From: an uncultured Acetatifactor sp.
GTDB lineage: Bacteria > Bacillota > Clostridia > Lachnospirales > Lachnospiraceae
Reading direction: 5' to 3'
Length of the DNA stretch: 39,505 bases
Assembly: GCA_947595925.1 (NCBI GenBank)
Contig: CANQEV010000027.1
Location: forward strand, 1 to 39,505
Position 1 is the stretch's first letter. Each line of letters opens with the position of its first letter. Positions 1,693 to 37,827 of this stretch are shown piece by piece. The translations under genes were made by a program, and so were the position numbers. The notes beneath the pieces were generated by a model. The model was not told the origin of the DNA. It worked only from the letters and a program-made list of their open reading frames with translations, and did not search any database.

Positions 1693-1793
1693 GGATGTCC
1701 CCCCTTAGATTTTCTCAATTCCCCTCAAACAAATCACCTGTCTGAGCAGAGCTGCTAAAGCATTTGCACAATGAGAGTTTCGCGGCCGCCTGA

Positions 1794-2882
1794 TCAATAG
1801 GTCACCGTTAAAGCCGGACGTACGCCTTGATGAACGTTAACAAAAATTCCGCCGTCGTTAACGGTGCCATCTCTTGATACAAGTGCCGCATAAATCTCAC
1901 GATCACCAGGTGAACGCAGCCACCATCTGTCACAGCCGTCCGCATAACGAACTGCTTCCAGCCAGTTCAGAGTGGGTGCATAATAGCCAGGATAGGGCTC
2001 CGGCGCATTCGAAAATATCTCCACCTCCGCATCAATATCCAAAGGATAGAATTCCTGCTGAATCGCATATGCAGTAGGCTTCGCCACGATACGGTGATCC
2101 TGATCATAGCAATATTTGGTATATGCCGAAACGCCAGCGGGCATGAGATCGTCGTACTTGCTTTCAATCTCCAGCCCCTCCTCCACGGAGATGTGAAAGT
2201 ACTTCTCCAGATCTCCCAAAGAGAGAAGCCATATTTTGTCTGACGTGTCATTTCCACCCGGTGTGCCAAATATCGGGTTATCCTCGTTTACCACATTTGT
2301 CACGGCGATGTGTTCCTGCTCGGCTTCTGTGAAAGCAGCGTTCAGGAAATCATCATTCAGCCACGCCCGCAGCGCACAGTCCTCCCAGGTCATGGCCGTC
2401 TCCTCCGAATGATATCTTTGGTTATCAAGCAGATAAACGCTTAACAGGGTCGCCTGGCCGTCCTCCATATCCAGTATGAACCATTCGATGGGTTCCGCGC
2501 CGTTTTCCGCATCGTTGTCCTGCTCGTAAGTCCCGAACGTCACAATATCGCCCGCCTTGGCATTGGCAATCTCGTCAAAAGTCCACCTTGGGAGGGCGTC
2601 AAATTCTGATTCCTCCGTCTCCCCGGCGGAAGAGGATGGTTCTTCTGATGAAGCGGACGGTTTTGCCGTTGAAGAGGACGACTCTTCCATTGAAGCAGAC
2701 GGCTCTTCCTCCGCACCCATTTCCCCTCCGGAAGGTTCCGAAGAACCCTGTAGCCCATCTGTCATCACCGAATTTTGACTGTCTTCCAGGTCTGAAGTTT
2801 CCCCGTCCGCAGATCCGGGGCCGCAGGAAATCAGGCATATGGACAGACACAGTATCAAAGGATACAGGAAAAATTTTTTCAT
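1794..2882 (-). CDS. DUF6273-like lipoprotein, array copy 3 (first transcribed)
   Basis: A 362-residue lipoprotein. I place the start at ATG 2882 (MKKFFLYPLILCLSI), not at the in-frame ATG 240 bp upstream. AGAGGAG lies just before 2882, the N-terminus then matches the two sister copies, and the putative promoter lies between the two ATGs. Lipobox LISC with Cys20 is followed by an EEPS-type linker and a DUF6273-type domain with an intact WWLRSPG motif and terminal GVRPALTVTY. It is the promoter-proximal gene of the array and probably leads a three-gene transcript. Its C-terminal module (1827-1931) has the same length as that of copy 2 but differs at 37 of 105 bases by my count. The function is unknown; anchoring in the outer leaflet of the membrane is inferred. 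Confidence 0.88.
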   Translation of the reverse strand: MKKFFLYPLILCLSICLISCGPGSADGETSDLEDSQNSVMTDGLQGSSEPSGGEMGAEEEPSASMEESSSSTAKPSASSEEPSSSAGETEESEFDALPRWTFDEIANAKAGDIVTFGTYEQDNDAENGAEPIEWFILDMEDGQATLLSVYLLDNQRYHSEETAMTWEDCALRAWLNDDFLNAAFTEAEQEHIAVTNVVNEDNPIFGTPGGNDTSDKIWLLSLGDLEKYFHISVEEGLEIESKYDDLMPAGVSAYTKYCYDQDHRIVAKPTAYAIQQEFYPLDIDAEVEIFSNAPEPYPGYYAPTLNWLEAVRYADGCDRWWLRSPGDREIYAALVSRDGTVNDGGIFVNVHQGVRPALTVTY

Positions 2883-2963
2883 GGATGTTCTCCTCTTGAT
2901 CATAAGGCATATTTGTATGATAGGGAAACGGAAACTGCCGGCACCCTGCAAGAATACAAGGTC

Positions 2964-2992
2964 ATTATAGCATGATGCTCCCTCCAGCACAA
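2964..2992 (-). promoter_or_regulatory. Sigma-A-type promoter of the lipoprotein array
   Basis: Read on the minus strand: -35 TTGTGC (2987-2992), a 17-bp spacer and -10 TATAAT (2964-2969) preceded by TGC, an extended -10. The leader to ATG 2882 would be about 75 nt. This is the only strong promoter seen in the 415-bp gap 2883-3297. Confidence 0.7.
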
Positions 2993-3065
2993 GCAAAAGC
3001 GGCCATTTCCCGCCCTTTCCACCCTTTTTCCTGTTCTGTCTCCCCGTCCTTCTCCTCTGTTGAAA

Positions 3066-3112
3066 TAAGCCGTTAATTTGCTGTACGTTTCTATACAACA
3101 AATAACGGCTTA
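3066..3112 (-). terminator. Long imperfect hairpin in the gap between GH13 gene and lipoprotein array
   Basis: The arms TAAGCCGTTA-A-TTTG-C-TGTA and TACA-A-CAAATAACGGCTTA form about 18 pairs with one bulge and one mismatch around an 8-nt loop. The hairpin lies about 190 bp downstream of the GH13 stop at 3298. The tail on the minus strand is only TTTCAAC and on the plus strand CTCTTTTC, so termination is possible in either direction but not certain. It could equally be a remnant of a small palindromic mobile element. A second, shorter perfect hairpin (CGCCCG/CGGGCG, 3249-3265) sits nearer the stop. I see no gene in 2883-3297. Confidence 0.4.
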
Positions 3113-3297
3113 CTCTTTTCAAAAAACCGCCGGAGCGGAACTTTAGACAGGTTCAGCCGCTCTTTCGGTGCAGTTTGCGGAAATTCAAGGTTTCTGACTG
3201 GGCGGCTGGAAAGCGCTATACAGAAATAATATATTGCCAAGCATTGCGCGCCCGCTCCTCGGGCGTACCGGAGGTTCTTTCCCTGGCCCGGTCACTC

Positions 3298-23665: not shown

Positions 23666-24958
23666 TTATTTCTTCAGAGAGCTCTCACGATAAATGATAT
23701 CCTGCCTTCCGGGACCGTTGCTGACCATGGTGATGGGATACCCGATCTGTCCCTCGATAAATTCAATGTATTTGCGGCAGTTTTCCGGCAGTTCCTCATA
23801 ATTCTTAATGCCCCGGATATCGCACTTCCAGCCGGGAAGTTTTTTCAGGACGGGAGTCGCCTTCTCCAGTTTCCAGGTCACGGGGAACTCCGTGGTCACT
23901 TCCCCGTCGATCTCATAGCCCACGCAGACGGGGATCTCATCCAGGTAACCCAGCACATCCAGCACCGTAAAGGCCACGTCCGTAGTCCCCTGCAGGCGGC
24001 AGCCATACTTCGAGGCTACACAGTCAAACCAGCCCATGCGTCTCGGCCGCCCGGTGGTAGCGCCGTACTCTCCCCCGTCGCCGCCCCGTCTCCGAAGCTC
24101 CTCCGCCTCGTCTCCGAAAATTTCCGACACGAACGCCCCCGCGCCTACCGCGGAAGAATAAGCCTTGCAGACGGTGATCACTTCCTTGATCTCATAAGGC
24201 GGGATGCCCGCGCCGATAGCGCCGTACGCGGCCAGCGTGGAGGATGAGGTCACCATGGGATAGATGCCGTGGTCCGGATCCTTCAGCGTCCCGAGCTGCC
24301 CCTCCAAAAGGATGGTCTTTCCGTCTTTGATCGCCTGATCCAGGAAGGAGGACACATCGCAGACATAGGGCTCGATCATTGTTTTATAATCATGCAGGGT
24401 ATCCAGAAGTTCTCCGGGATCCAGCTCCGGCTTGTTATACAGGTGCTTCATCAGGACATTCTTGATCTCACACACCCGTTTTACCTTCTCCTCCAGCGTC
24501 TCCTCGTCAAAGAGCTCGCTCACCTGGAAGCCGATCTTGGCGTACTTGTCGGAATAGAAGGGGGCAATTCCCGTCTTCGTGGAACCGAAGGATTTTCCTC
24601 CCAGCCTCTCCTCCTCGTACTGATCCAGCAGAATATGATAGGGCATGACGATCTGGGCCCTGTCGGAAACCAGGATCTTAGGCATGGGAACGTTCCGGTC
24701 CACAATGGACTGGATTTCCTTAAACAGCACGGGAATGTTCAGCGCAACCCCGTTGCCGATCACGCTTGTGGTGTGGCTGTAAAACACGCCCGACGGCAGA
24801 GTGTGCAGCGCAAATTTTCCGTAACAGTTCACAATGGTGTGCCCCGCGTTCGCACCGCCCTGAAAGCGGACGATGATATCCGCCTTCTCCGCCATCATAT
24901 CCGTGATCTTCCCTTTTCCCTCGTCGCCCCAGTTGGCGCCAACTACCGCTTTTACCAT
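23666..24958 (-). CDS. purA: Adenylosuccinate synthetase
   Basis: A 430-residue cytosolic enzyme joining IMP and aspartate with GTP to form adenylosuccinate, the first step of the AMP branch. The start at ATG 24958 (MVKAVVGANWGDEGKGK) is preceded by GGAGGG; an ATG 24 bp upstream is rejected. The GTP-loop GDEGKGK (11-17, with catalytic Asp12) and GGANAGHTIV with His40 are intact, as are TGRPRRMGWFD and the C-terminal half. The length is standard. It has its own promoter (25015-25043) and terminator, so it is probably transcribed separately from the purine genes upstream. Confidence 0.97.
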   Translation of the reverse strand: MVKAVVGANWGDEGKGKITDMMAEKADIIVRFQGGANAGHTIVNCYGKFALHTLPSGVFYSHTTSVIGNGVALNIPVLFKEIQSIVDRNVPMPKILVSDRAQIVMPYHILLDQYEEERLGGKSFGSTKTGIAPFYSDKYAKIGFQVSELFDEETLEEKVKRVCEIKNVLMKHLYNKPELDPGELLDTLHDYKTMIEPYVCDVSSFLDQAIKDGKTILLEGQLGTLKDPDHGIYPMVTSSSTLAAYGAIGAGIPPYEIKEVITVCKAYSSAVGAGAFVSEIFGDEAEELRRRGGDGGEYGATTGRPRRMGWFDCVASKYGCRLQGTTDVAFTVLDVLGYLDEIPVCVGYEIDGEVTTEFPVTWKLEKATPVLKKLPGWKCDIRGIKNYEELPENCRKYIEFIEGQIGYPITMVSNGPGRQDIIYRESSLKK

Positions 24959-25014
24959 AATACCCTCCGTTTTGAATGCCAAGCAGATACGCTTGATTTA
25001 CTCTTGTAAGGATA

Positions 25015-25043
25015 AGTATAGCATACTATTTACCATAAGTAAA
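25015..25043 (-). promoter_or_regulatory. Promoter of purA
   Basis: On the minus strand: -35 TTTACT (25038-25043), a 17-bp spacer and -10 TATACT (25015-25020) with TGC before it. An A/T-rich stretch with two TATAAAAT-like repeats lies just upstream (25044-25080) and could act as an UP element. No purine riboswitch is seen in the leader. Confidence 0.65.
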
Positions 25044-25109
25044 ATCAATATATTTTATAGATTTTATAAGTCGAAATTATATTATGTCAGTTCAGCCAGA
25101 CGCTCCGTC

Positions 25110-26513
25110 TCACTCTCTCCCGTCCCAGCAGTAGGTGCAGAGCTTGTCCTTGTCGATTCCCACGGACTCGATCATGTCGTCCAGCCTGTGATAGCGCAGG
25201 GTGGTGAAGTTCAGCTGCTTTCCGATCCGCGCCACCATGTCGTTGTACTCGTCAGTGTTGGGATCCACATATTTCTTCAGGTCCATCTTCAGCCCTTCCT
25301 GTTTCATGTCGTTCAGGACGCGCCTTGCGATCAGCTCCATCTCGGAGGTGGAGCGGGAGAAATTCAGGTACTTGCAGCCGAACAGAAGGGGCGGGCACGC
25401 CGGGCGGATGTGAACCTCCCTTGCGCCGCTCTGGTACAAAAATTCCGTGGTCTCCCTAAGCTGGGTTCCCCGGACGATGGAATCGTCGATCAGAAGCAGG
25501 CTCTTGTCCTGGATCAGGTCGTGCACGGGGATCAGCTTCATCTTCGCGATCAGGTTCCTCTGGTTCTGCATGGTGGGCATGAAGGACCGGGGCCAGGTCG
25601 GGGTGTATTTAATGAAGGGCCGGGAAAAAGGAATCCCGGACTCATTCGCGTATCCGATGGCGTGTGCCGTTCCGGAGTCCGGGACGCCCGCCACGATATC
25701 CGGCTTCACATGATCCCGCTTCGCCAGGGCCGCGCCGCATTTGTACCGCATCTCCTCCACGCTGATCCCCTCGTAGGAAGACGAGGGATAGCCGTAATAG
25801 ATCCACAGGAACGTACAGATCTTCATCTTCTCCCCGGGCTTTACAAGGGTCTGCACCCCCTCGGGAGTGAGCACCACAATCTCCCCGGGACCCAGCTCCC
25901 TCACCGGCGTATATCCCAGGTTCAGGTAGGAAAAGCTCTCAAAGGCCGCGCAGTAGGCGTCCTCCTTCTTGCCGATGGCCACCGGCGTCCTCCCCAGCCG
26001 GTCCCTGGCCGCGTAGATCCCCAGCGGCGTCAGTATCAGGATCGTCATGGAACCGTCTATCTTCTCCTGGGCGAAGCGTATCCCCTCCACCAGGTTGTCC
26101 TTCTGATTGATCAAGGCCGCCACCAGCTCCGTGGCGTTGATATCGCCGCTGCTCATCTCCATGAAGTGGGAATTGCCGTTGTCGAAGATCATCTTCGTCA
26201 GCTCTTCGGTGTTGTTGATCTTTCCCACCGTGGTGATGGCGTAGGTCCCGTGATGGGAGCGCATGAGAAGGGGCTGGGGCTCGTAGTCGGAGATACAGCC
26301 GATGCCCAGATTTCCCTCCATGCTGTTTACGTCCTTATCAAATTTCGTCCGGAAGGGGGCGTTCTCGATATTGTGGATCGCCCTGTCAAATCCCCTCTTT
26401 CCATACACCACCATGCCGGCGCGGCGTGTTCCCAGATGGGAGTGATAATCCGTGCCAAAAAACAGGTCAAACGTGCAGTCTTCCTTCGCCGCTACTCCAA
26501 AAAATCCACCCAT
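25110..26513 (-). CDS. PurF paralogue without a glutaminase active site
   Basis: A 467-residue homologue of amidophosphoribosyltransferase. The phosphoribosyltransferase half is intact, with the PRPP loop LLLIDDSIVRGTQ, as are Cys positions matching the iron-sulfur ligands of Bacillus PurF (KICTF, LLFGCKY, CTYCWDG). The N-terminal glutaminase half is present as a fold, but its catalytic residues are gone: codon 2 is GGT (Gly; MGGFFGVA) where the processed enzyme has Cys; the RYST loop is deleted (GIGCISDYEPQP); the NG oxyanion pair reads VG; the later Asp is Asn. It cannot use glutamine by the known mechanism. It may use ammonia, act on another acceptor, or regulate the true PurF encoded 1.6 kb upstream. 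It sits between purB and purA. AGGAAG precedes ATG 26513. Confidence 0.88.
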   Translation of the reverse strand: MGGFFGVAAKEDCTFDLFFGTDYHSHLGTRRAGMVVYGKRGFDRAIHNIENAPFRTKFDKDVNSMEGNLGIGCISDYEPQPLLMRSHHGTYAITTVGKINNTEELTKMIFDNGNSHFMEMSSGDINATELVAALINQKDNLVEGIRFAQEKIDGSMTILILTPLGIYAARDRLGRTPVAIGKKEDAYCAAFESFSYLNLGYTPVRELGPGEIVVLTPEGVQTLVKPGEKMKICTFLWIYYGYPSSSYEGISVEEMRYKCGAALAKRDHVKPDIVAGVPDSGTAHAIGYANESGIPFSRPFIKYTPTWPRSFMPTMQNQRNLIAKMKLIPVHDLIQDKSLLLIDDSIVRGTQLRETTEFLYQSGAREVHIRPACPPLLFGCKYLNFSRSTSEMELIARRVLNDMKQEGLKMDLKKYVDPNTDEYNDMVARIGKQLNFTTLRYHRLDDMIESVGIDKDKLCTYCWDGRE

Positions 26514-26596
26514 GTCTCATCTTCCTCGCTTTGTCTCTGTCAAATTTCTATTTTCTTTGTCCCTCAGGCGAATCCCGCCAGAGCTCCCAAACTTTT

Positions 26597-28048
26597 TCAG
26601 ACGTTGATCTCCGCCTTGATCCCCAGAATATCGTTGTTGGCGTCCAGGATGGGCCGGATCACCTTATTCAGAAAAGCGTCCACCTGCTCCACGGAACGGC
26701 CCACATAGCGGGCGGGATCCATGCACTTCTGCAGATCCTCCAGGGACATGCCGAAAGCGGGATCCGCTGCGATCAGCTCCAGCAGATTGTTTTCCAGTCC
26801 TTTATCTTTGACGTTCTGCCCCGCTTCCATGGAGAGCTCGCGGATGCGCTCGTGCAGTTCCTGGCGGTTCCCGCCCCTCTTTACCGCGTCCATCATGATA
26901 TTCTCGGTGGCCATAAAGGGCAGCTCGCTGCGGAGCCGTTTTTCGATCACCTTCGGATAAACCACCAGGCCGTCCACCACGTTCAGGCACAGGTCCAGGA
27001 TGCCGTCGATGGCCAGGAACCCTTCCGGGATGGAGAGCCGCTTGTTCGCGGAGTCGTCCAGGGTCCTCTCAAACCATTGGGTGGCGGAGGTGATCGCGGG
27101 GTTCAGCGCGTCCACCATGACGAACCTGGAGAGGGAGGCGATCCGCTCGCACCGCATGGGATTTCTCTTATAAGCCATGGCGGAAGACCCGATCTGGTTC
27201 TTCTCAAAGGGCTCCTCCACCTCCTTCAAATGCTGGAGCAGCCGGATGTCGTTGCTCATCTTGTGGGCGCTGGCCGCGATACCCGCCAGTACATTCACCA
27301 CCCGGGTGTCCACTTTCCGGGAATAGGTCTGGCCGGACACGGGATAGCACTCCTGAAAGCCCATCTTTTCCGCGATCATGGGGTCGATCTTGTCAATGGT
27401 CTCCTGATCCCCGTCAAAGAGCTCCAGGAAGGACGCCTGGGTGCCAGTGGTTCCCTTGGATCCCAGAAGCTTCAGCGTAGAGGCGACATAATCCAGATCT
27501 TCCAGATCCATGGAAAACTCCTGCAGCCAGAGGGTCGCCCGCTTTCCCACGGTGGTGGGCTGGGCCGGCTGGAAGTGGGTGAAGGCCAGCGTGGGCTGGG
27601 CCTTGTATTTCTCCGCAAAATCCGCCAACTCCTTCATCACATTGATCAGCTTCCGGCGGACCAGTTTCAGAGCTTCTCTCATCACGATGATATCCGTGTT
27701 GTCCCCCACGTAGCAGGACGTGGCCCCCAGGTGGATGATGCCCGCCGCCTTGGGACACTGCTGCCCGTAAGCGTACACGTGGCTCATCACGTCGTGCCGC
27801 ACCAGACGCTCCCGCTCCTTCGCCACCTCGTAATTGATGTCCTCCGCGTGGGCCTTCAGCTCATCGATCTGCTCCTGGGTGATGACGGGCTTTCCGTTCT
27901 GGGAGAGCCCCAGTTCCTTCTCCGTCTCCGCCAGGGCGATCCAGAGTTTCCTCCAGGTCTTGTACTTCATGTCCGGGGAGAAGATATACTGCATCTCCTT
28001 GCTGGCGTAACGCTCCGATAAAGGGCTCTGATACTTGTCTGTGCTCAT
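26597..28048 (-). CDS. purB: Adenylosuccinate lyase
   Basis: A 483-residue enzyme of the fumarase/aspartase superfamily. It removes fumarate from SAICAR and from adenylosuccinate, serving two steps of AMP synthesis. The superfamily signature SSAMAYKRNPMRCE is present near the middle, and TQASFLELFDGD and TSCYVGDNTDI mark other active-site regions. The length fits the longer clostridial type. AAGGAGAG precedes ATG 28048. It lies 60 bp after purF and 83 bp before the PurF paralogue and reads in the same direction, probably one transcript. Confidence 0.96.
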   Translation of the reverse strand: MSTDKYQSPLSERYASKEMQYIFSPDMKYKTWRKLWIALAETEKELGLSQNGKPVITQEQIDELKAHAEDINYEVAKERERLVRHDVMSHVYAYGQQCPKAAGIIHLGATSCYVGDNTDIIVMREALKLVRRKLINVMKELADFAEKYKAQPTLAFTHFQPAQPTTVGKRATLWLQEFSMDLEDLDYVASTLKLLGSKGTTGTQASFLELFDGDQETIDKIDPMIAEKMGFQECYPVSGQTYSRKVDTRVVNVLAGIAASAHKMSNDIRLLQHLKEVEEPFEKNQIGSSAMAYKRNPMRCERIASLSRFVMVDALNPAITSATQWFERTLDDSANKRLSIPEGFLAIDGILDLCLNVVDGLVVYPKVIEKRLRSELPFMATENIMMDAVKRGGNRQELHERIRELSMEAGQNVKDKGLENNLLELIAADPAFGMSLEDLQKCMDPARYVGRSVEQVDAFLNKVIRPILDANNDILGIKAEINV

Positions 28049-28108
28049 CGTACTCTCCTTTTTATCCGGGATACTCTCCCTGTTTTTCTATTATGTTGAC
28101 CGATGTGG

Positions 28109-29557
28109 TCAGCGTTCATATTCCCCGCGGATATCGGTCTTTGGCGGTTCCATGGGGTATTTCCCGGTAAAGCATCCCCGGCAGATCCCCAGGCCCCCGG
28201 CGATCTGCGCCAGCCGCTCCTCACGGAGATAGGCCAGGCTATCGCTGCCGATGATCTCCCGGATCTGCTCCACCGTGCGGCCACAGGCGATCAGCTGCTC
28301 CCGGCCCGGAACGTCCGTCCCGAAATAACAGGGCCAGAGGAAGGGCGGCGAACTGACCCTCATGTGAACCTCCTTTGCCCCGGCCTCCCGGAGCATCCTC
28401 ACGATGCGGTCCGAGGTGGTCCCCCTGACAATGGAGTCGTCGATCATGATCACGCGCTTTCCCTCCACCGCCTCCCGGATGGGATTCAGCTTCACCTGGA
28501 CGCTGCTCTCCCGGTTCTTCTGTTTCGGCTTGATAAAGGTGCGCCCCACGTAGGCGTTTTTCATAAAGGCGATCCCGTAGGGAATCCCCGACTGCATGGA
28601 ATATCCCATGGCGGCGCAGTTCCCGGACTCCGGGACTCCCACCACGAGATCCGCGTCCACCGGGGAATCCATGGCCAGATACTTCCCCGCCAGGATCCGG
28701 GAATGGTACACGCTGACGCCGTCGATGATGCTGTCCGGCCGTGCGAAATAAATGTATTCAAAGACGCAGCGCCCCTCGTCTTCCTTCTTCAGGGCGTGGC
28801 TCATGTCGGACTCGATCCCTTTTTCCGGAGAGATCGTCACGATCTCCCCGGGCCGGACGTCCCGGATGAACTCCGCTCCGATCGTATCCAGGGCGCAGCT
28901 CTCGCTGGACAGGAAATACGTGTTGTCCCGCTTTCCGATGCACAGGGGCCGGAAACCGTAAGGGTCCCTGGCACCTATGAGTTTCCTGGGCGACATGACC
29001 GCCAGGGAATAGGCCCCCCGGATCTTATCCATGGCCCGTCCCACCGCCTCTTCCACGCTTCCCACATTCAGCCTCTCCCGGGCGATGTGGTAGGCGATCA
29101 CCTCCGAGTCGATGGTGGTCTGAAAGATGGCGCCGGTATAGGCAAGTTCCTCCCGGAGCTGGGGGGCGTTGACCAGGTTGCCGTTGTGGGCGAGGCCCAG
29201 GATCCCCTTCACATAATTCAGGACCAGGGGCTGGGCGTTCTCCCGGGTGGAGCTTCCCGCGGTGGAATACCGCACATGCCCCACGCCGATATCCCCTTTC
29301 AGCTTTTCCAGGTGTTCCGGGGCAAACGCCTCGTTGACCAGGCCCATATCCTTGTACGCCAGGGCCTTTCCCTTGGGGCCCGAAGTGTCGCTGACCGCGA
29401 TCCCGCAGCTCTCCTGGCCCCTGTGCTGCAGGGCCAGAAGGCCGTAATAAATCGTGGAGGCCACGTCCCCGCCGCTGAAATCATAAGCGCCGAACACGCC
29501 GCACTCTTCCCTGAGCTTGTCCTGAAGGTCTTCCTGCACAAAAATTCCGTCTGTCAT
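28109..29557 (-). CDS. purF: Amidophosphoribosyltransferase (glutamine PRPP amidotransferase)
   Basis: A 482-residue enzyme for the first committed step of purine synthesis, PRPP plus glutamine to phosphoribosylamine. The start at ATG 29557 (MTDGIFVQEDL) with AAAGGACGG upstream gives a short propeptide, to be cleaved before the nucleophile Cys19 in REECGVFGAYD. Glutaminase residues are all present: GHVRYSTAG, AHNGNLVN and TIDSEVIA. The PRPP loop is VIMIDDSIVRGTT. Cysteines for a 4Fe-4S cluster as in Bacillus PurF are visible (EGRCVFEY, WPCYFG, CRGCFTGKYP). An in-frame extension upstream to 29716 is Arg-rich and would run through two hairpins; it is rejected. It follows purC after a 162-bp spacer. 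Confidence 0.97.
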   Translation of the reverse strand: MTDGIFVQEDLQDKLREECGVFGAYDFSGGDVASTIYYGLLALQHRGQESCGIAVSDTSGPKGKALAYKDMGLVNEAFAPEHLEKLKGDIGVGHVRYSTAGSSTRENAQPLVLNYVKGILGLAHNGNLVNAPQLREELAYTGAIFQTTIDSEVIAYHIARERLNVGSVEEAVGRAMDKIRGAYSLAVMSPRKLIGARDPYGFRPLCIGKRDNTYFLSSESCALDTIGAEFIRDVRPGEIVTISPEKGIESDMSHALKKEDEGRCVFEYIYFARPDSIIDGVSVYHSRILAGKYLAMDSPVDADLVVGVPESGNCAAMGYSMQSGIPYGIAFMKNAYVGRTFIKPKQKNRESSVQVKLNPIREAVEGKRVIMIDDSIVRGTTSDRIVRMLREAGAKEVHMRVSSPPFLWPCYFGTDVPGREQLIACGRTVEQIREIIGSDSLAYLREERLAQIAGGLGICRGCFTGKYPMEPPKTDIRGEYER

Positions 29558-29618
29558 CTCTTCCGTCCTTTCCGCCTCCCGCCGTATCCTGCGGAGGCAT
29601 CCGGACAGCCCTGGGCAG

Positions 29619-29649
29619 AATGGGGCCGCCGGATCAGCGCGGCCCCATT
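29619..29649. other. Perfect GC-rich hairpin in the purC-purF spacer
   Basis: AATGGGGCCGC and GCGGCCCCATT are perfect 11-bp inverted arms around a 9-nt loop. No T-run follows on either strand, so it is more likely an RNA-stability or processing element than a terminator. Confidence 0.55.
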
Positions 29650-29684
29650 GCCGCAGACATTTTCCATATATAAGACGCCTAAAG

Positions 29685-29709
29685 CCCAAGGCGCTTTTCG
29701 CGCCCCGGG
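29685..29709 (-). terminator. Hairpin just after purC, possible partial terminator
   Basis: On the minus strand CCCGGGGCGC pairs with GCGCCTTGGG (10 positions, two G-U) around a GAAAA loop, then CTTTAGGCG. It begins 11 bp after the purC stop. The tail is too short for a full terminator; partial termination could set purC above purF. Confidence 0.45.
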
Positions 29710-29719
29710 CCGTCATTTT

Positions 29720-30595
29720 TTACTGCAGCTTTTTCCCCGTCAGGAGCTCATACCCCTGCAGGTACTTGTCTATGGTCTTCTGAACCACCTCTTCCGGCAG
29801 GGTCCAGTCGTGCTCATTGGCCTTCAGCCAGTCCCTGGCGAACTGCTTGTCGAAGGAGGGCTGAGCGTGGCCGGGTTCATACCCCTCCGCCGGCCAGAAC
29901 CTGGAGCTGTCAGGGGTCAGCATCTCGTCGCCGAGAACGATGTTTCCCTCCTCGTCCAGACCGAACTCAAACTTCGTGTCCGCGATGATGATGCCTCTCG
30001 TCAGCGCGTAATCCGCACACTTTTTATACAAAGCTATGGTGTAATCCCTGAGCTTGGAAGCGTACTCCTCTCCCTTCCCGGGGAAGCGTTTCTCCAGATA
30101 GTCCACGCTGGCCTCGTAGGAGATGTTCTCGTCGTGATCGCCGATCTCGGCCTTGGTGGAAGGGGTATAAATGGGCTCCGGCAGCTTGTCCGACTCCTTC
30201 AAACCCTCCGGAAGGCGGATGCCGCAGACCGTGCCATCCTTCACGTAGCTGGCCCAGCCGCTCCCGGTGATGTAGCCGCGGACAATGCACTCCACGGGAA
30301 GCATGTTCAGCTTTCTGCACATCATGCTGTTGCCGTCAAACCTGGGCTGCTGAAAAAACTCCGGCATGTCCTTCACATCCACGGAGATCATGTGGTTGGG
30401 GATGATGTCCCTGGTCATGTCGAACCAGAATTTAGAAAGCTGCGTCAGTACGGTCCCCTTCTTCGCAACGGTGTTATGAAGGATCACGTCAAAACAACTG
30501 ATCCGGTCCGTGGCCACCATGATCAGGCTGTCGCCGTTGTCGTAGATCTCCCGGACCTTTCCCTCTTTGATGGGTTTCAACTCCTGCACACTCAT
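29720..30595 (-). CDS. purC: SAICAR synthetase
   Basis: A 291-residue enzyme, phosphoribosylaminoimidazole-succinocarboxamide synthase, joining CAIR and aspartate with ATP. Recognisable stretches are GKVREIYDNGDSLIMVATDR at the nucleotide-binding N-terminus, CIVRGYITGSGW, ADTKFEFG, and LGDEMLTPDSSRFW. GAGG lies before ATG 30595. It leads the colinear run purC-purF-purB-PurF paralogue. Its leader is structured (30636-30683) and a promoter can be proposed directly upstream, beginning 10 bp from the stop of the preceding operon. Confidence 0.96.
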   Translation of the reverse strand: MSVQELKPIKEGKVREIYDNGDSLIMVATDRISCFDVILHNTVAKKGTVLTQLSKFWFDMTRDIIPNHMISVDVKDMPEFFQQPRFDGNSMMCRKLNMLPVECIVRGYITGSGWASYVKDGTVCGIRLPEGLKESDKLPEPIYTPSTKAEIGDHDENISYEASVDYLEKRFPGKGEEYASKLRDYTIALYKKCADYALTRGIIIADTKFEFGLDEEGNIVLGDEMLTPDSSRFWPAEGYEPGHAQPSFDKQFARDWLKANEHDWTLPEEVVQKTIDKYLQGYELLTGKKLQ

Positions 30596-30635
30596 GTTAA
30601 GCTACCTCGCTCTCTTATAGTGGATTGCCATGCTG

Positions 30636-30683
30636 ATTAGGTTTTTTGTGAACACGGCGGCCTGCCGGACCGCTACACCTAAT
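30636..30683 (-). promoter_or_regulatory. Structured leader element upstream of purC
   Basis: On the minus strand the outer arms ATTAGGT and ACCTAAT (30677-30683 and 30636-30642) enclose an inner hairpin GCGG-U-CC / GGCCGC with loop GGCA (30657-30673). It matches no riboswitch I know and lacks a T-run. It would be at the extreme 5' end of the purC mRNA if the promoter at 30684-30712 is right. Confidence 0.45.
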
Positions 30684-30721: not shown

Positions 30722-31903
30722 TCACGATATTCTCTCGGATTCCCGCTGGTATTTCTCCACCATATCCAAAATTTCACCGCTGTATTCCGGATATTGGCGG
30801 GAAATCTCAAGAACCTGCTGATGCGCTTCCTCCGCGGCGCTCTTGTTGTAATCCATCTGTTTTCGAAGCGCCTGGCGGCGCTGGATCAGATCATGCCGGA
30901 TCTCCACCATCTCCCTGGGATCCAGCAGGGCCGCCGTCTGCCGCACCCACCTTCCCGGATCCTTCAGACGGCAGCGCCTCAGCTGTTCCTCCAGCCGGTC
31001 CTGATAATATTCGACCTTTGACTGGGCCTCCGCAAACTGTTTCCTGACCTCTTTTTCCTGCTGATAAATCTCCCAGAGTCCGGCCAGTTTTTCAGAGGAA
31101 TCCGTATTGTACTTCATGCGGAGATATTCCAGCAAGTTTGTATTGTTCACATAGCGGATCTTGACCGTGTTCTGCAGCTGGATCAGCTTGCTGATGGCAC
31201 GCCGGATCCCCTCCAGCTCCTTCTGGGCGTCCAGATACCTCACGCCGACAAACGTCACCGCTATGGCCCCGGACATCACCGCCACAAAATATCCGACATA
31301 CGCATTCATGTGAAGGCCGAACTGCAGCACCGCCAGGAGCACAAGGCAAATCGCCAGGGCAGCCAGAAAGATGACCGCCATGCCCCGGTAGTTCCCGCAC
31401 ATGCCCTCCAGTTCCTGCTCCCGAAAGGCGTGGGCCTGCCTCTCCACGTCCAGTTTTTTCAAATCCTGACGGATCAGGCCGGAGTACCGCTCCGCCTCCC
31501 GGAGTTTTTCGATCCCTTCCTCCACGGTCTGTTCCTGGCTGCGAAGAGCGTGATACTCCTGATCGGTCATCTTTCTTTTTCTTTCCAGATAACCCTCTAT
31601 CTCCCCCTCCAGGGTCCTGATCGTCCGGGCATTCTGTTCCAGCTCTTTTTTCTCCTGCTCGGGAAGCGCCTCGATCTCCTCCATGTCGGAGAGATAGTCC
31701 GTGACCAGGGCATACTCCCCCTTCAGTTTCTCCGTCTCCCGGTCCGCCTCCGCAATCTGCTCCAGGCATCCGGCCACATACCGGTTCCTCTGGCTCCGGT
31801 CATTGAAATTCACGCCGTCCGTGAGGTAAACCAGCTGTTCCCAATCTGCCGGATCCGCCGCCGTCTTCTTTTTTTTACCAAATAATCGCTTCCAAAATCC
31901 CAT
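30722..31903 (-). CDS. Membrane-hairpin coiled-coil protein of unknown function
   Basis: A 393-residue protein. A basic N-terminus (GFWKRLFGKKKK) leads into charged heptad-rich helices (about 45-165). Two hydrophobic segments (about 175-195 and 202-224) with a short FGLHMNAYV turn follow, then a second long charged helical region to the end. With two closely spaced helices both coiled-coil arms should face the cytoplasm. No catalytic motif is seen and I do not recognise the family. It is the last gene of the four-gene operon 37650-30722, starting 11 bp after the TPR-like gene with AAGGA overlapping that gene's end. It could be the membrane anchor of a complex formed by the operon's products. 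The purC promoter follows at once. Confidence 0.82.
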   Translation of the reverse strand: MGFWKRLFGKKKKTAADPADWEQLVYLTDGVNFNDRSQRNRYVAGCLEQIAEADRETEKLKGEYALVTDYLSDMEEIEALPEQEKKELEQNARTIRTLEGEIEGYLERKRKMTDQEYHALRSQEQTVEEGIEKLREAERYSGLIRQDLKKLDVERQAHAFREQELEGMCGNYRGMAVIFLAALAICLVLLAVLQFGLHMNAYVGYFVAVMSGAIAVTFVGVRYLDAQKELEGIRRAISKLIQLQNTVKIRYVNNTNLLEYLRMKYNTDSSEKLAGLWEIYQQEKEVRKQFAEAQSKVEYYQDRLEEQLRRCRLKDPGRWVRQTAALLDPREMVEIRHDLIQRRQALRKQMDYNKSAAEEAHQQVLEISRQYPEYSGEILDMVEKYQRESERIS

Positions 31904-31914
31904 GACGTTTCCTT

Positions 31915-32769
31915 TTATTCGTTGACACAGATCCGGTAGGCGTCCTTCAGCGACCGACAGAGAAGGCCGCTCTCTTCATAATAGCGCTGTTTCCCGCTGC
32001 CCTCTCTCCACTCGCTTCTCTGCCGCAGCATCAGCTTTTCCGGCTGCGTCGCAAAATCCCTGCGGAGTTCCTGCATGCGCCGTTCCAGCTCCAGCGTCAG
32101 CTCGTAATGCTCCAGTTCCCCGGCTGCAAAGGCAATGTACTGGTTCTCAGACAGTTCCATCCGCTTTGCGCCCAGATAGCAGAAATACTCTTCCTCATTC
32201 CCTCCGGCCCGATAGGCTTCCAGAAAACATTCCTGAGCCTGTCCGTACAACATCAGCCTGCAGTAAGCCACGCCCTTATTGTGCAGAATGTCCGCCCGGA
32301 TCTCTTCCCCCGGCAGTTCCCGCCCCATCCCGGCAAACTCTTCCCACCTGAGAAGCAGGCTGTCATACCCCCGGAGGGCGGCCGTATACTTTTTCTTTTT
32401 TACTAGATAATCCACCTGTTCCTTGCGTTTTTCCAGATTGGAGAGCCCCGCCCCTTTCCGCAGGGTCTGCTCTACCTGCCGGATGGTATCCTCATCGTAA
32501 AGCCCCACATATTGAAGGATCGCCGATACAAACATGCTCAAGGACCCCTGCCTGTGGACCATGGGATACAGGGAATCCGCGAGCTCATCCAGGCCGCACT
32601 GTTCCCGGATCCAGCCGATCAGAACGTCGTTCATCAGCGTATTGTCCAGCAGAAACGCATTTTCCTTGATTCCGTAGCACAGTTCCTCCATGCAGTACAC
32701 CTGGATTTCCAGCCCCTGGATCAGATAGGGGATGGAGGAATACTCTCCCACACACAAATACCCCGGCAT
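31915..32769 (-). CDS. TPR-like helical protein of unknown function
   Basis: A 284-residue protein from ATG 32769, six bases after AGGAGG; the GTG at 32772 is too close to it. The first ~110 residues (PGYLCVGEYSSIPYLIQGLE) are a conserved-looking helical domain I cannot name. Two TPR-like pairs follow: VDYLVKKKKYTAALRGYDSL, and ADILHNKGVAYCRLMLYGQA followed by QECFLEAYRAG. The last part is charged and helical. There is no signal peptide or membrane span, so it is cytosolic. TPR proteins are adaptors, often for Hsp70-type partners; the neighbouring gene encodes an Hsp70-like protein. The spacing is 10 bp from that gene and 11 bp to the coiled-coil gene. Confidence 0.82.
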   Translation of the reverse strand: MPGYLCVGEYSSIPYLIQGLEIQVYCMEELCYGIKENAFLLDNTLMNDVLIGWIREQCGLDELADSLYPMVHRQGSLSMFVSAILQYVGLYDEDTIRQVEQTLRKGAGLSNLEKRKEQVDYLVKKKKYTAALRGYDSLLLRWEEFAGMGRELPGEEIRADILHNKGVAYCRLMLYGQAQECFLEAYRAGGNEEEYFCYLGAKRMELSENQYIAFAAGELEHYELTLELERRMQELRRDFATQPEKLMLRQRSEWREGSGKQRYYEESGLLCRSLKDAYRICVNE

Positions 32770-32779
32770 CACAAGCCTC

Positions 32780-34054
32780 CTAATCGATTATGATTTCCTG
32801 CGTCCAGCGCCTGTTTTCGGCGGGACGGAACTCCCCAAAGCCAAGGTCCTCGAACTCCGCCTCCAAAAGGTTCTCCTCCTTCATGGAAAGCGACATCCGG
32901 ATCCTGGCGATATCGCCCGGAAGCTGGTCCAGCGCAATGGGGACTTCCCACTTTCTTCCGCTGCCGAGGGAGGTAACGGTGATCTCCACCTTTTTTTCCT
33001 CCCGAAGATAAAACTCCCAGGAGGCCTCCGCCTTCTTCCAGTCGTTCCCCGCGTCCAGAAGCGCCAGATAAGTCTCCTTCCCCCGCTGCATGACCTTCAT
33101 TCCAATATTGCTCTTCAGCTTATCATTTCCCAGGAAAACATATTTACCGGTATTTTCCCCGGGCGAAAAACGCTCCAGCATCCCATAGCAGGCGCCCTTG
33201 CTGAACAGGTTGTTTCCCAGGAAGATCCTCCTGCCCTCGCAAAGAAACTTCAGGGATTCTTTCAGCCACTCCTCCGAGAAATCCTCCCCGATCAGGTAGA
33301 CCGACGAGACTTTCAGCCCGTCGAGCTTTTCCCGCGCCGTCCTTAAGAATTCCCGGTCCAGCAGAAGATTCCCCTGATCGTCCGCCGGCATTGAGGCCTT
33401 GGCGGGAAATTCTTCCTCCGACTGATGGATAAAAACCGTGATGGGCTGGGTCTTCCGGTTACATTCCAGCCGGAGAAACCCCATGCGGTTCCCATGATAG
33501 TCAAACAGGACGGAGGTATCCCTCCAGAGATCCAGGTCCTGCCGGAGCATGTAATGGTAATAGCTCTCCTGATGGGATTGAAAACAGATCTTTGCCGTTT
33601 TCAGCCGGAGATTGGCCGCCATCCGTTCCAGCATTTCCATCATCTTCTCATCCATCCGGTCGCAGGTGATCATAAGCGCTTCAATCTTATCCGCCGCCGC
33701 AATTCCGGAAAGCATCCCCAGGCTTCTCTGCAGAAACAGAGTCAAAAGCGCCGTCGGATCATACTCCGTCTCTTCGATGTAAACCGGTTCCCCTTCCAGT
33801 GCGAGATGCAGCAGATCCTGTACCAGGATCCCCCCGCTCTCCCGTGCATACTGGAGGGCTTCTTTTCCATAGAACCACTGATTGATGCCGGTGCGCTTGC
33901 AGAGGGCCACCGGTATGCTGTAATTCTCGGAACCCGCCACGGAAGACAGGGTCTCCACCTGGGCCCGCGCCACATTGCAGTAACTGATCTGCGCGTATTC
34001 CCAGCCAAGGTCATAGCCCACGATCCATTTTTCATTGCCAAATCCCTTCAGCAT
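32780..34054 (-). CDS. DUF5716-like protein with a divergent Hsp70/actin ATPase fold
   Basis: A 424-residue cytosolic protein which I believe corresponds to DUF5716 (from memory). Position by position it follows the Hsp70 nucleotide-binding domain: VGYDLGWEYAQIS (13-25) for phosphate loop 1; FYGKEALQYA (61-70); EALMITCDRMDEKMMEML with CFQSHQESYYHYML (125-170) for the ITVPA...NEPTAAAIAYGL segment; SVLFDYHGNRMGFLRLE (181-197) for loop 2; and VYLIGEDFSEEWLKESLKF with SKGACYGM (252-292) for the adenosine region. A beta-rich C-terminal domain (355-424) resembles a short substrate-binding domain. Loop 2 lacks the Gly-Gly-Gly-Thr of active Hsp70s, so ATP hydrolysis may be weak or absent. It is the second gene of the operon, 20 bp after the DUF5717-like gene, with GGGGGAGGAC upstream. 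Confidence 0.82.
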   Translation of the reverse strand: MLKGFGNEKWIVGYDLGWEYAQISYCNVARAQVETLSSVAGSENYSIPVALCKRTGINQWFYGKEALQYARESGGILVQDLLHLALEGEPVYIEETEYDPTALLTLFLQRSLGMLSGIAAADKIEALMITCDRMDEKMMEMLERMAANLRLKTAKICFQSHQESYYHYMLRQDLDLWRDTSVLFDYHGNRMGFLRLECNRKTQPITVFIHQSEEEFPAKASMPADDQGNLLLDREFLRTAREKLDGLKVSSVYLIGEDFSEEWLKESLKFLCEGRRIFLGNNLFSKGACYGMLERFSPGENTGKYVFLGNDKLKSNIGMKVMQRGKETYLALLDAGNDWKKAEASWEFYLREEKKVEITVTSLGSGRKWEVPIALDQLPGDIARIRMSLSMKEENLLEAEFEDLGFGEFRPAENRRWTQEIIID

Positions 34055-34074
34055 GCCAGTCCTCCCCCGCGGCT

Positions 34075-37000
34075 TCAGTGCAGAACAAACAGGTTCTCAC
34101 CGCAATATTCCTTAAAGTAATAGTTTTCCAGCTCGCTGTCCAGCGTATCATAATCCCGAAGGCTGTTGCTGATCACAATGTCGTTTATCAGGCTGTATTT
34201 GCTGCCCTGCAGATCCGTCTCCGAGTCGCTTCTCTGAAGGTTCCCGCTCTCCGTGAGCTGGGAGCCCTCCTCGTCTTCCTCCGTGATATAATACTGCAGC
34301 GTCTCGCCAAAGAACAGGACAAATTCCTTACAGCACACGCCCCCGAACACATCCCGCATGTTTTCGGAAAGATACTCCCCTCCTTCTCCATCCTCCTGCA
34401 GGATCATATAGTGGATCCGGGCGCGTCCGCCGGGTTTCGCGTGGTATTCCACGATCACCTTGTCGCTGAGCTCTCCCAGGAGATGCGCCTGGGACTTCAG
34501 TTTTTTATAAAAGGCAAAATGTATCTTTTCCGCCATCATCTCCCGCAGGAAACTGTCCAGGGCCTCATTCACTTCCTTTGTCACTTCGCCCTGGTTGTCG
34601 CCGTAATACTTCAAAAAAGCCAGCTTGCATGCCTTGGGCACCGGCGCTTCCCACTTATAGTAATCCAGTATGGTCCGGAAAATGACTCCGTCAGTCAATC
34701 GCTCCCGCACGAAATATTCATAGGAGCTTGCCATGAGGAACGCCCTGGTCACTTCGCAGTCCCCCGCCGCCTGGTAGAAGCTCTGGAAGATCTCCGCCTT
34801 TTCACCCACATGGGACCCCGTATACATCAGCTGGATCAGGATCCTTTCCTCTATTTCCCGGCTGTCCAGTCCGTTCCCCTTCATTTCCTTCCACACGTCC
34901 CGGAGCTCCTTACAGGTGCCGTCCATCCACCGGCCCAGATATTCCAGGATGACAGCATTGTGTTTTGACCTGTGGAACAGATAGCCTGCAGACGCCAGGA
35001 TGACGGGGTCACAGTCCTGCCCGCCCTCGCTCAGCAACGTGCTCACGAGCCTCGCCAGGGTCTTTGCCTCCGGGAAGTAGGGGCCATACTTCCGCACCCA
35101 TTCAAACGCCTTCTTATAATTGCCCTCCAGGACCAGATACCGCATCGCCTCCATCCGCTCCTGGGAACTCAGCCAGTCGGCGTCCATTCCGTCCAAAAGC
35201 CTGTCCAGTTCCTGCACGCGGTCCATCTCATAAAACTGTCTCATAAGCTTCAGGGTGAGCTGCTTTTTCAGCTTTGGCTCGATATGTTCCCAGGCGCAGA
35301 GTTTCATGGCTCTGCCGGCCATCCCCTCATCCAGGACATCCCCCTCCGATTTTTCCCGGAGGAGATAGAGGTCAAACTCCGGACAGTCCGTCACATATTT
35401 CATCAGTTCCGGCACATATCTGCCCGGCAGCATATATTTTTCCAGCTCATGGGGCATCCTCTCGGAAAACCGGTTCCCATACGCGTCCTCGAACACAAGG
35501 CAGTACCCGCTTCCGTAAATCGGCACACAGGCCTCCCCATTCGTCAAAGTATATTCCAGCCCCCGCGTGCTTCCCTCCGCATAGACGACCACCTTCCGCA
35601 TCCGGCTGTCCTCCACCCGGATCTTGGTGGCAAAAAACAGTCTGGCCAGTTTTTCCGCGTTCTGCTCCGTGATCCTATCCGGCGTGAGCAGTCTGGCGTA
35701 GAGATTCGCCAGATGACGGTTGATCCTCTCCTTGCTGATCTGTTCTTTGATAAACTCTTCGGCCTTCATCAGATATTTTTCATAGCTGTCCGAAAAAAGC
35801 AGCCTGTTGTCCAGGACATAATCGTACAGCAAAGCGCTCCTGGAATAATCCAGGTTGTTCTGGTAGGCAAAGTAAAGCACAACGGCCTTTGGCAGGCTCT
35901 TGACGTTCTCCGGGTTCAGGGACATCATGTAAAATTCATAGAGATTCGTGATGCGGAGCTGATCCTCCACGCCCCTTTCATACCAGACGCAGGCCTTCGG
36001 CCCTGTCACCCCTCCCCTGGCAAGCAGGAGACACATCTCCTGGACAATCCTGTCGTCCGCCCTCTTCTCATAAAGCTTGTCCAATATTCGGTAAAGGGTG
36101 GGCGAGAACTCCTTGTTTTTGCCCATGAGCTCCAGAAACCTCTCCACCAGCTCCGCGTTCAGATAATCCCTTCGCACGCCGTAATACAGCACCTGCTGTT
36201 CAAACCGGTCCAGTTTCCGCAGCAGGGACGGGTTGTTGTTCAGAATCTGAAGCGCCTCTATGTACAGGACAAAACTATTGCTGCCCCGTTCAAACTGTTT
36301 CTCAATAAACTGGAGCTTCGCCACCGGCATTTTGGAAAACTCGTCGGAGAGGTATAAAAGGAGCCAGGCAATCCTCCAGGACTCCGGTTTTTCCCTGTAT
36401 AACTCCTCCACCTCTGCGGAAACGCTTTCGATCAGGCCCTCCTCTCTGTTGACCAGTGTAGTCAAATACAGATAGTAGGCCCAAAGCTCCTCGCTGACCT
36501 TCCCCTTGTTCTCCATCATGGTCCGGGCGTGGTCCAGAAGCCATCCGGCCTCGTTCTGCCGCTCCTGGGTAATTAAAATCTGCGCCTTGAACAGTTTTGA
36601 CGCGGGGTCATCCCCGTCCAGCGCGATCAGTTTCTCAACCAGGACGCCCGTCTCCTTCAGCCAGTTTGCCAGACCGATCCTATGCGTCCTGAAATTCTCA
36701 TACTGCTTCATCAGGGCAACCACGGTCCTCTGTTTTTCCAGCACCGCCAGACTCAGGAGATGATTGGTCCCCATCTGCACGCTCACAGGGATCTCCAGAT
36801 TGACAAAGGAATTGTAGAGGACAACCTTTCCCCGGTTTTTCCCCTGACAAAGGCGGGAACCGTCCACATAGAGCGGAAGCCTGGCATAATTTCCCAGGAA
36901 ATCATCCTCCGTCAGGAGCGTCTTTTCCGAGTATAGGAAATCGCCGTCGCACTCCACGTTCAGCGCGGTATACCCCCAGCCATTCCTGACAATGGTGATC

Positions 37001-37650
37001 TCCCGGGGAAGCAGCCTGTACTCTCCCTCGGAGGAATGACCCTCCATTTGAACCTCCGGCTCCTGAACCCAGAATTCCACCGGCTGTTTCTTTCCGACAT
37101 GGATCAGAAATTCTTCCATGTTCTGCTCCTGACCCGGATATACGGAAAGTCCCTGATAACTGGTGAGATACTGCGCGTCGCTCTCTTCCAGCATTTTTGA
37201 GAAATCTTTGGAATAAAAGACCTTAACGGCTTCCTGCCAATTGCTCTTCGCCAGATTTGTAAAATGAAACAGATTTTTGATGGGGCCCATGGAAGAATCA
37301 ATTCTCCGCGGTTCGCAGACCACCACATACGGAAGGGAATACTCCCCCTGGCTGCTGATCACCCGGAAAGCCCCCTTCACCGTCTCGCCCTCTTCCACCG
37401 CCTCGCCGTGAAACAGATACCCGATCTCAGATACGCTGCCGGAAAACGTCCCGTTCAGACACTCCATGCGGTAATCCGTGGACAGGACACGCCCCTCCGC
37501 TACGGTTCCCCGCTGGCCCAGGATCTGAAAGCTGCCGGAAAAAGTCTCGCCCTGGGATATGGAAATCTCTATCTTCGTACAGGAAAAATCGAGAAAACCG
37601 CCCTCAAATATGTAATTTCCCGCCAGAATCTGATCCACAATCTCTCTCAT
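34075..37650 (-). CDS. DUF5717-like giant helical-repeat protein
   Basis: A 1191-residue protein, by far the largest here, which I believe belongs to DUF5717 (from memory). The first ~115 residues are a beta-rich domain (FLDFSCTKIEISISQGETFS, GTFSGSVSEIGYLFHGEAVE). A second beta region runs to about 290 (WGYTALNVECDGDFLYSE). From about 310 to 1050 it is almost all helical with TPR-like spacing and many Leu/Tyr/Arg positions. The last ~120 residues return to strands (EYHAKPGGRARIHYMILQED) and end in an acidic stretch. It has no signal peptide, membrane span or enzyme motif. It is the first gene of the operon and likely its scaffold. AAGGAG lies a rather long 13 bp before ATG 37650. The function is unknown. 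Confidence 0.83.
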   Translation of the reverse strand: MREIVDQILAGNYIFEGGFLDFSCTKIEISISQGETFSGSFQILGQRGTVAEGRVLSTDYRMECLNGTFSGSVSEIGYLFHGEAVEEGETVKGAFRVISSQGEYSLPYVVVCEPRRIDSSMGPIKNLFHFTNLAKSNWQEAVKVFYSKDFSKMLEESDAQYLTSYQGLSVYPGQEQNMEEFLIHVGKKQPVEFWVQEPEVQMEGHSSEGEYRLLPREITIVRNGWGYTALNVECDGDFLYSEKTLLTEDDFLGNYARLPLYVDGSRLCQGKNRGKVVLYNSFVNLEIPVSVQMGTNHLLSLAVLEKQRTVVALMKQYENFRTHRIGLANWLKETGVLVEKLIALDGDDPASKLFKAQILITQERQNEAGWLLDHARTMMENKGKVSEELWAYYLYLTTLVNREEGLIESVSAEVEELYREKPESWRIAWLLLYLSDEFSKMPVAKLQFIEKQFERGSNSFVLYIEALQILNNNPSLLRKLDRFEQQVLYYGVRRDYLNAELVERFLELMGKNKEFSPTLYRILDKLYEKRADDRIVQEMCLLLARGGVTGPKACVWYERGVEDQLRITNLYEFYMMSLNPENVKSLPKAVVLYFAYQNNLDYSRSALLYDYVLDNRLLFSDSYEKYLMKAEEFIKEQISKERINRHLANLYARLLTPDRITEQNAEKLARLFFATKIRVEDSRMRKVVVYAEGSTRGLEYTLTNGEACVPIYGSGYCLVFEDAYGNRFSERMPHELEKYMLPGRYVPELMKYVTDCPEFDLYLLREKSEGDVLDEGMAGRAMKLCAWEHIEPKLKKQLTLKLMRQFYEMDRVQELDRLLDGMDADWLSSQERMEAMRYLVLEGNYKKAFEWVRKYGPYFPEAKTLARLVSTLLSEGGQDCDPVILASAGYLFHRSKHNAVILEYLGRWMDGTCKELRDVWKEMKGNGLDSREIEERILIQLMYTGSHVGEKAEIFQSFYQAAGDCEVTRAFLMASSYEYFVRERLTDGVIFRTILDYYKWEAPVPKACKLAFLKYYGDNQGEVTKEVNEALDSFLREMMAEKIHFAFYKKLKSQAHLLGELSDKVIVEYHAKPGGRARIHYMILQEDGEGGEYLSENMRDVFGGVCCKEFVLFFGETLQYYITEEDEEGSQLTESGNLQRSDSETDLQGSKYSLINDIVISNSLRDYDTLDSELENYYFKEYCGENLFVLH

Positions 37651-37784: not shown

Positions 37785-37827
37785 AAACAAAAGAAAAGCA
37801 GCACCCTCAGGCGGGAGTGCTGCTTTT
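37785..37827 (-). terminator. Intrinsic terminator of the ABC transporter operon
   Basis: On the minus strand AAAAGCAGCAC pairs perfectly with GTGCTGCTTTT (11 bp; arms 37817-37827 and 37794-37804), with further CCC/GGG pairs inside, and is followed by TTTTCTTTTGTTT. A textbook terminator 23 bp after the permease stop. Confidence 0.88.

Follow-up and report, generated by a model that had tools for sequence, protein, structure and literature searches.

Ssz1, the Hsp70-like subunit of the yeast ribosome-associated complex, pairs with a J-protein and does its work jointly with partners, not as a chaperone on its own; Ssz1 and Hsp110 are Hsp70-like helpers of another Hsp70. Here we describe an operon that encodes a degenerate Hsp70 in a stretch of DNA from an uncultured Acetatifactor sp. 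(contig CANQEV010000027.1, 39,505 nucleotides, all of which were analysed and are called the window below). Its four genes encode a DUF5717 scaffold (S), the degenerate Hsp70, a member of DUF5716 (H), a TPR adaptor (T) and a membrane hairpin with coiled-coil arms (C). With a probability that we put at roughly 0.6, this operon is a reduced version, passed on vertically, of a longer Hsp70 operon, and its proteins S, H and T would form a scaffold, often tethered to the membrane, around the pseudo-Hsp70.

Comparable parts occur in two described systems. Excerpts of the paper on GAP1-N2 GTPase systems (Kaur et al. 2020, PMC7159879) describe one theme with Hsp70, GrpE and FNIII-DnaJ or FNIII-TPR proteins (FNIII, fibronectin type III), and excerpts on CoCoNuTs (PMC11090510) a degenerate Hsp70-like protein, thought to bind RNA, beside the McrB GTPase. 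DUF5716 and DUF5717 were mere family names to the original prediction, which a model had made from the DNA letters alone, and Pfam indeed gives no function for them; the open-licence papers searched yielded no description of the operon or of a role for either family, contain neither their Pfam accessions nor their 'family protein' names, and mention the family names in one off-topic paper.

A degenerate Hsp70 in DUF5716

H (32780..34054, minus strand) is an open reading frame (ORF) of 424 amino acids (aa) with a Pfam DUF5716_C match at residues 126-421, for which a divergent Hsp70-type fold had been proposed. Profile and structure comparisons both match Hsp70, substrate domain included, and no different fold was predicted: residues 8-298 (33161..34033, minus) have the fold of the Hsp70 nucleotide-binding domain and residues 316-422 (32789..33109, minus; model and profile alignment) that of the substrate-binding β-sandwich, right after which the protein ends, the α-helical lid (SBD-α) being absent from profile and model. 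A profile of H2, as the orthologous protein of the longer operon is called below (A3; 47 of the 53 listed H2 proteins and that of the window), aligns over positions 22-502 with DnaK 37-500 at E 1.3e-22, and the Pfam HSP70 model itself gives no match to H. The phosphate-1, phosphate-2, connect-1 and adenosine motifs are all degraded; H reads GYDLGWEYA, FDYHGNRMG and LIGEDFSEE against GIDLGTTNS, YDLGGGTFD and LVGGSTRIP in the DnaK of its own genome. An actin/MreB-like filament was considered for H and ruled out, profile and fold being those of Hsp70 including its substrate domain.

Conservation of the operon within its family

The window belongs to a family, f1 in our labelling, whose named homologues are labelled Lachnospiraceae, Acetatifactor and Roseburia. 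When 245 genomes drawn from the whole order, each at least 90% complete, were searched for DUF5716, 132 gave a match, 72 of them from f1 (a single copy each) and 60 from other families, and no f1 genome is among the listed genomes of this draw that lack one. ORF calling favoured long ORFs and hid some genes (L084, L125, L129, L136); presence was counted afresh by a six-frame profile search, which found S and H at all 72 f1 loci, T at 71 and C at 45. The predicted co-occurrence of the genes in one order holds for S, H and T, which share order and strand in 71 of the 72 loci, and breaks down for the full set of four at C. The odd locus (L108) runs into a contig end; the genome whose cut locus lacks T carries T and then C where a different contig ends (L248). 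The three matches lie within 400 bases of each other at 65 loci; at six more (L063, L074, L078, L118, L120, L133), where the best S stretch stops early, the order was read from the gene map, on which the genes are consecutive. An order kept this widely is not due to chance.

In a wider draw, DUF5717 was found in 147 of 150 f1 genomes (146 of 149 genera), and the three genomes without it also lack DUF5716, a joint absence for which assembly gaps are possible. Retention of S on this scale in a dominant gut family points to a core function, of which we found no description. Draws from the class and the phylum gave DUF5717 in 13 of 293 and DUF5716 in 5 of 398 genomes, respectively, every one of them f1. 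Median gaps in f1 are 13 base pairs (bp) between S and H (68 loci), 8 bp between H and T (64) and 16 bp between T and C (43). In three of the 72 f1 genomes, from three genera, H and T form a single ORF of 690-729 aa (L064, L132, L135). These fusions, together with the constant order, the small gaps and the joint absence, support a complex in which S, H and T would associate directly.

A longer multi-Hsp70 operon in other families

At least nine other families (f4, f5, f7, f11, f16, f19, f22, f23, f24) carry a longer operon with the constant order SN (~390 aa), SC (~900), H1 (~558), X (mostly 550-650), H2 (~500-530), H3 (~547), H4 (~695), T (~390) and, in some, C; the DUF5716 search often returns two or three matches per genome outside f1. 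We scanned eight proteins of locus L058 and two of L050 against Pfam (E up to 1). In L058, SN and SC are parts of DUF5717, H1 and H3 are HSP70, X has a C-terminal GrpE domain (PF01025), H2 matches DUF5716 and, less strongly, HSP70, H4 is HSP70 (PF00012) followed by a von Willebrand A (vWA) domain, and T is a TPR protein. The 49 loci outside f1 run from SN to T in 19 cases (two with C) and from SC to T in 5, and are partial in 25, many being cut by contig ends; a separate SN could not be made out in f22, nor could T in one of the four f22 loci. A pattern scan for X over 84,980 species genomes yielded 57 loci, for which the depositors' labels are Defluviitalea phaphyphila, Defluviitaleaceae, 'Candidatus Epulonipiscium', Eubacteriaceae, Eubacteriales, Clostridiales, Clostridia, Turicibacter (one) and Bacillota (one). 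A simple motif, which can miss such genes, detected no J-domain gene in the 49 and 57 loci. The long operon is not a constant of the order: an HSP70 search of 24 of its genomes gave only DnaK and short, MreB-sized matches in 12, from nine families (f2, f8, f10, f13, f14, f15, f17, f20, f21), and likewise in G034 (f11) and G046 (f22).

The long-form loci (L050, L052, L058, L252 and others) merit attention in their own right: three motif-intact Hsp70s, one of them fused to vWA, stand beside a degenerate Hsp70 and a GrpE-ended protein of some 565-645 aa, a combination of which we found no description. Extra unannotated genes, possibly clients or insertions, interrupt the operon in several metagenome-assembled genomes labelled Defluviitaleaceae or Clostridiales (L186, L189, L202, L222). 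Directly upstream of another long operon, on the same strand, lies a gene whose 388-aa product contains hydrophobic segments and a long coiled coil (L060:17828-18994; Pfam coiled-coil matches below threshold). At L047 (G027, f4), both H4 and T are broken across two frames and X measures only 279 aa, which may reflect a reduction in progress or an assembly error.

A probable reduction from the long to the short form

The window's genes are orthologues of the S, DUF5716, TPR and C genes of the long operon. In a tree of the Hsp70 paralogues, limited to H proteins of at least 360 aa, four clades are separated, and the f1 H proteins fall inside the H2 clade. When H3 serves to root the tree, the f1 sequences form a single clade (1.0) whose sister is the long-form f4 (0.996), and the two join the long-form f22 (0.919). 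The S and H trees were built from family-labelled loci, with f1 thinned to 23, using 50 of 99 S and 59 of 104 H sequences; the S profile (A2) holds 78 of the 120 listed homologues and the window's protein.

The ATPase motifs point the same way. Across 30 H4, 37 H3, 37 H1, 47 long-form H2 and 68 f1 H2 proteins, selected by length and E-value, they are intact in H1, H3 and H4, degenerate in H2 and worse still in the H2 of f1; an ancestor with four genes would therefore need to have regained them. None of H1, X, H3 and H4 was found at any of the 72 f1 loci by the six-frame search, and the HSP70 search of the window's own genome (G000) gave DnaK and two short matches in ORFs of 331 and 351 aa, the size of MreB. 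X is also absent from the 150 f1 genomes save for five weak matches in ORFs of 206-245 aa, the size of the housekeeping GrpE. A divergent aminotransferase gene (one representative annotated) lies just upstream of 28 of 121 loci, 19 of the 72 in f1 and 9 of the 49 elsewhere, which fits one chromosomal site and a reduction in place. What looks like a second, independent reduction is found in G039 (f16), whose locus holds SN, SC and H2 alone and whose genome has, besides DnaK and H2, only two MreB-sized HSP70 matches. The f1 operon is single-copy, near-universal in its family and apparently inherited vertically.

Architecture of S, T and C

S (34075..37650, minus; 1191 aa) matches DUF5717_N and DUF5717 from end to end (PF18984 at residues 1-876, PF18983 at 882-1188), and was modelled with AlphaFold2 (predicted local distance difference test, pLDDT, 87.5; predicted TM-score, pTM, 0.61). 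It had been pictured as a giant helical-repeat scaffold; the model does contain two TPR-like solenoids, but it has β domains as well and is not purely helical. From the N-terminus, it comprises two immunoglobulin-type β domains, possibly PapD/ASH-like, with a helical linker (residues 16-293; 36772..37605, minus), a first TPR-like α-solenoid (residues 299-672; 35635..36756, minus; model secondary structure and Foldseek matches), a small β domain between the solenoids (residues 674-738; 35437..35631, minus), a second α-solenoid (residues 746-1057; 34480..35415, minus) and a C-terminal β domain (residues 1064-1139; 34234..34461, minus), the last three from the model.

T (31915..32769, minus) has 284 aa from an ATG at 32769, or 285 from a GTG at 32772. 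The ATG is the more likely start, being directly preceded by GGAGG and giving the length of 82 of the 120 homologues listed. Pfam matches to TPR stay below threshold in T, whose own N-terminal domain shares homology with the N-terminal domain of the long operon's 390-aa TPR protein (hhalign probability 99.8). Outside f1, in the class-wide draw of 293 genomes, this domain gave two weak matches only (G746, G038), at loci without a related operon (L246, L247).

C (30722..31903, minus; 393 aa) has no Pfam match above cut-off and was foreseen as a two-helix membrane hairpin with coiled-coil arms, in agreement with two hydrophobic segments at residues 175-193 and 203-221 (31241..31381, minus; hydropathy), taken as transmembrane, and a profile match to the keratin coiled coil (E 4e-4). 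It is absent from the locus in 27 f1 genomes, 26 of which have no match anywhere and one a match on another contig. All ten long-form genomes tested have C, 3' of T in G027 (f4), G030 and G052 (f7) and elsewhere in seven, where the separate gene adjoins valS and others (named, except valS, from our reading of the sequences) that give no functional clue. C also follows T in three f22 loci and, in the fourth (L254), an unrecognised gene at the T position. With C after T in f1, f4, f7 and f22, it is probably an old member of the gene set that is able to move or be lost, and its absence or displacement means that a membrane tether is not essential everywhere.

A proposed assembly and its alternatives

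We propose that the f1 lineage lost three motif-intact Hsp70s and the GrpE-domain protein and retained S, the degraded Hsp70, the TPR adaptor and often C. S, H and T would form a stable complex, with H as a nucleotide-independent, fixed adaptor between S and T whose β-sandwich docks one or the other, and C, where present, would anchor the complex on the cytoplasmic side of the membrane. Most likely, such a complex would be a scaffold on which a membrane-proximal client is assembled or held, acting either independently of ATP or through recruited housekeeping DnaK. The membrane-bound cytosolic assembly of the original prediction is thereby kept as far as S, H and T are concerned, whose association is backed by gene order and H-T fusions, and modified in that C is optional. 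A further step, in which f1 turned a multi-Hsp70 machine into a near-universal, chaperone-free structural assembly and thus a new membrane-associated body, we advance only tentatively.

Several points weigh against this reduction model. The S tree groups f1 with f4 only weakly (0.417), the aminotransferase neighbour is present at a minority of loci, and C, the presumed tether, is gone from 26 of the 72 f1 genomes and lies away from the operon in seven of the ten long-form genomes. Of the 173 genomes of other families in the order-wide draw, 113 have no DUF5716 match, so the system is dispensable outside f1. Finally, H may bind nucleotide without the usual motifs, its Hsp70 fold being kept, and the long operon, with no J-domain gene found by motif, may not have been a classical chaperone machine.

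An alternative that we regard as possible, if doubtful, is a client-specific chaperone helper, in which S and T deliver the housekeeping DnaK, along with its DnaJ and GrpE, to a client at the membrane, H2 being a regulatory Hsp70 in the manner of Ssz1 or Hsp110. The structure search of H does not single out Ssz1 or Sse1, the 50 matches listed all lying within 1.4 Z, and the dedicated Hsp70s are gone from f1. It is unlikely that the operon builds a purely structural body, with the pseudo-Hsp70 as building block and S as beam, comparable to the ciliary central apparatus, which has immunoglobulin-type, TPR and Hsp70 parts of its own. This likeness is one of fold only, pilus chaperones of the PapD kind and further immunoglobulin-type domains reach equal scores, and over its whole length S resembles no PDB chain among the matches listed (TM-score at most 0.19, normalised by S length). 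The Foldseek matches of the first S solenoid to Naa15, SKI and other TPR proteins are also at fold level only. That the genes are loose neighbours, merely co-transcribed, with S working alone, is improbable, since the ability of C to be lost or sit elsewhere is set against the constancy of S-H-T, the H-T fusions and the joint absence in three genomes.

Defence systems are patchy in distribution, and a defence role is not a leading reading of this near-universal operon, whose four window proteins have no PADLOC match at E 1e-3 (best E 0.056). A conflict or immunity system in the style of the GAP1-N2 GTPase systems or CoCoNuTs is the least probable explanation, even though the parts list is similar (Hsp70, GrpE, vWA, immunoglobulin-type domains, TPR), CoCoNuTs likewise pair a degenerate Hsp70-like domain with helical repeats in the excerpts considered (PMC11090510), and the candidate-defence models PDC-M61B and PDC-M71B match the long-operon Hsp70s (E 5e-5 to 2e-8) and TPR protein (E 2e-10), because those matches cover only shared Hsp70/TPR stretches, the Pfam scan of ten long-operon proteins revealed no GTPase, GAP1, McrB or McrC domain, and the f1 operon is single-copy and apparently vertical.

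Genomic surroundings

The tight spacing of the four genes in the original prediction agrees with their ORFs, which are separated by 20 bp (S-H), 7 bp (H-T; 10 bp from the ATG start of T) and 11 bp (T-C). A terminator-like hairpin (37794..37827, minus; 13 pairs, 6 G-C) sets S apart from the ABC transporter genes upstream. The single promoter claimed for all four genes was not recovered, no sigma-70 consensus being present between this hairpin and the S start. Downstream of C, purC (PF01259) has a promoter-like site of its own at 30712-30684, a consensus match only. NCBIfam gave no match above cut-off for the four proteins.

Behind the operon, purC and purF and, farther on, purB and purA occupy 23666-30595, and many other f1 loci likewise have purine genes on their downstream side. 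The recurrent neighbours (purA, purB, purC, purF, valS, an ABC ATPase and the divergent aminotransferase; representatives annotated) give no functional clue. An 845-aa open frame antisense to purF and purC (28103-30640, plus strand) is most likely a by-product of codon usage, and two adjacent DUF6273-domain proteins with one hydrophobic segment each are encoded at 607-3122.

Comparison with known systems

With Hsp70 (DnaK, PF00012), H shares the nucleotide-binding-domain fold and the substrate-binding β-sandwich, which together make up the whole protein; it differs in lacking the lid, in its degraded ATPase motifs and in escaping the Pfam HSP70 model. Ssz1 keeps the Hsp70 fold as H does, and matches it structurally no better than DnaK; it has a J-protein partner, whereas the motif search found no J-domain protein in the long-form loci.

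The GAP1-N2 systems, as excerpted from PMC7159879, resemble the long operon in placing Hsp70, GrpE, immunoglobulin-type/FNIII and TPR parts in one neighbourhood. The theme of Hsp70 with GrpE is present in the long operon only (PF00012 in H1, H3 and H4, PF01025 in X) and not in that of the window; the long operon differs in having no GTPase or GAP1 among the ten proteins scanned, and the f1 operon in being near-universal in its family. To CoCoNuTs, in the excerpts of PMC11090510, the likeness lies in a degenerate Hsp70-like domain accompanied by helical repeats, coiled coils and vWA proteins; the same ten proteins contain no McrB GTPase, McrC or nuclease domain, and the operon is not a patchy restriction system.

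Descent from a multi-Hsp70 system of which the degraded Hsp70 alone was kept would be a starting point for the function of the operon, and long-form relatives such as Defluviitalea phaphyphila (L204) allow the job of the Hsp70s to be compared with what stayed after their loss. H and S are members of DUF5716 and DUF5717 above the Pfam cut-offs (PF18980, PF18983, PF18984), and what is new here is the link that their sequences suggest between these families, Hsp70 and the long operon.
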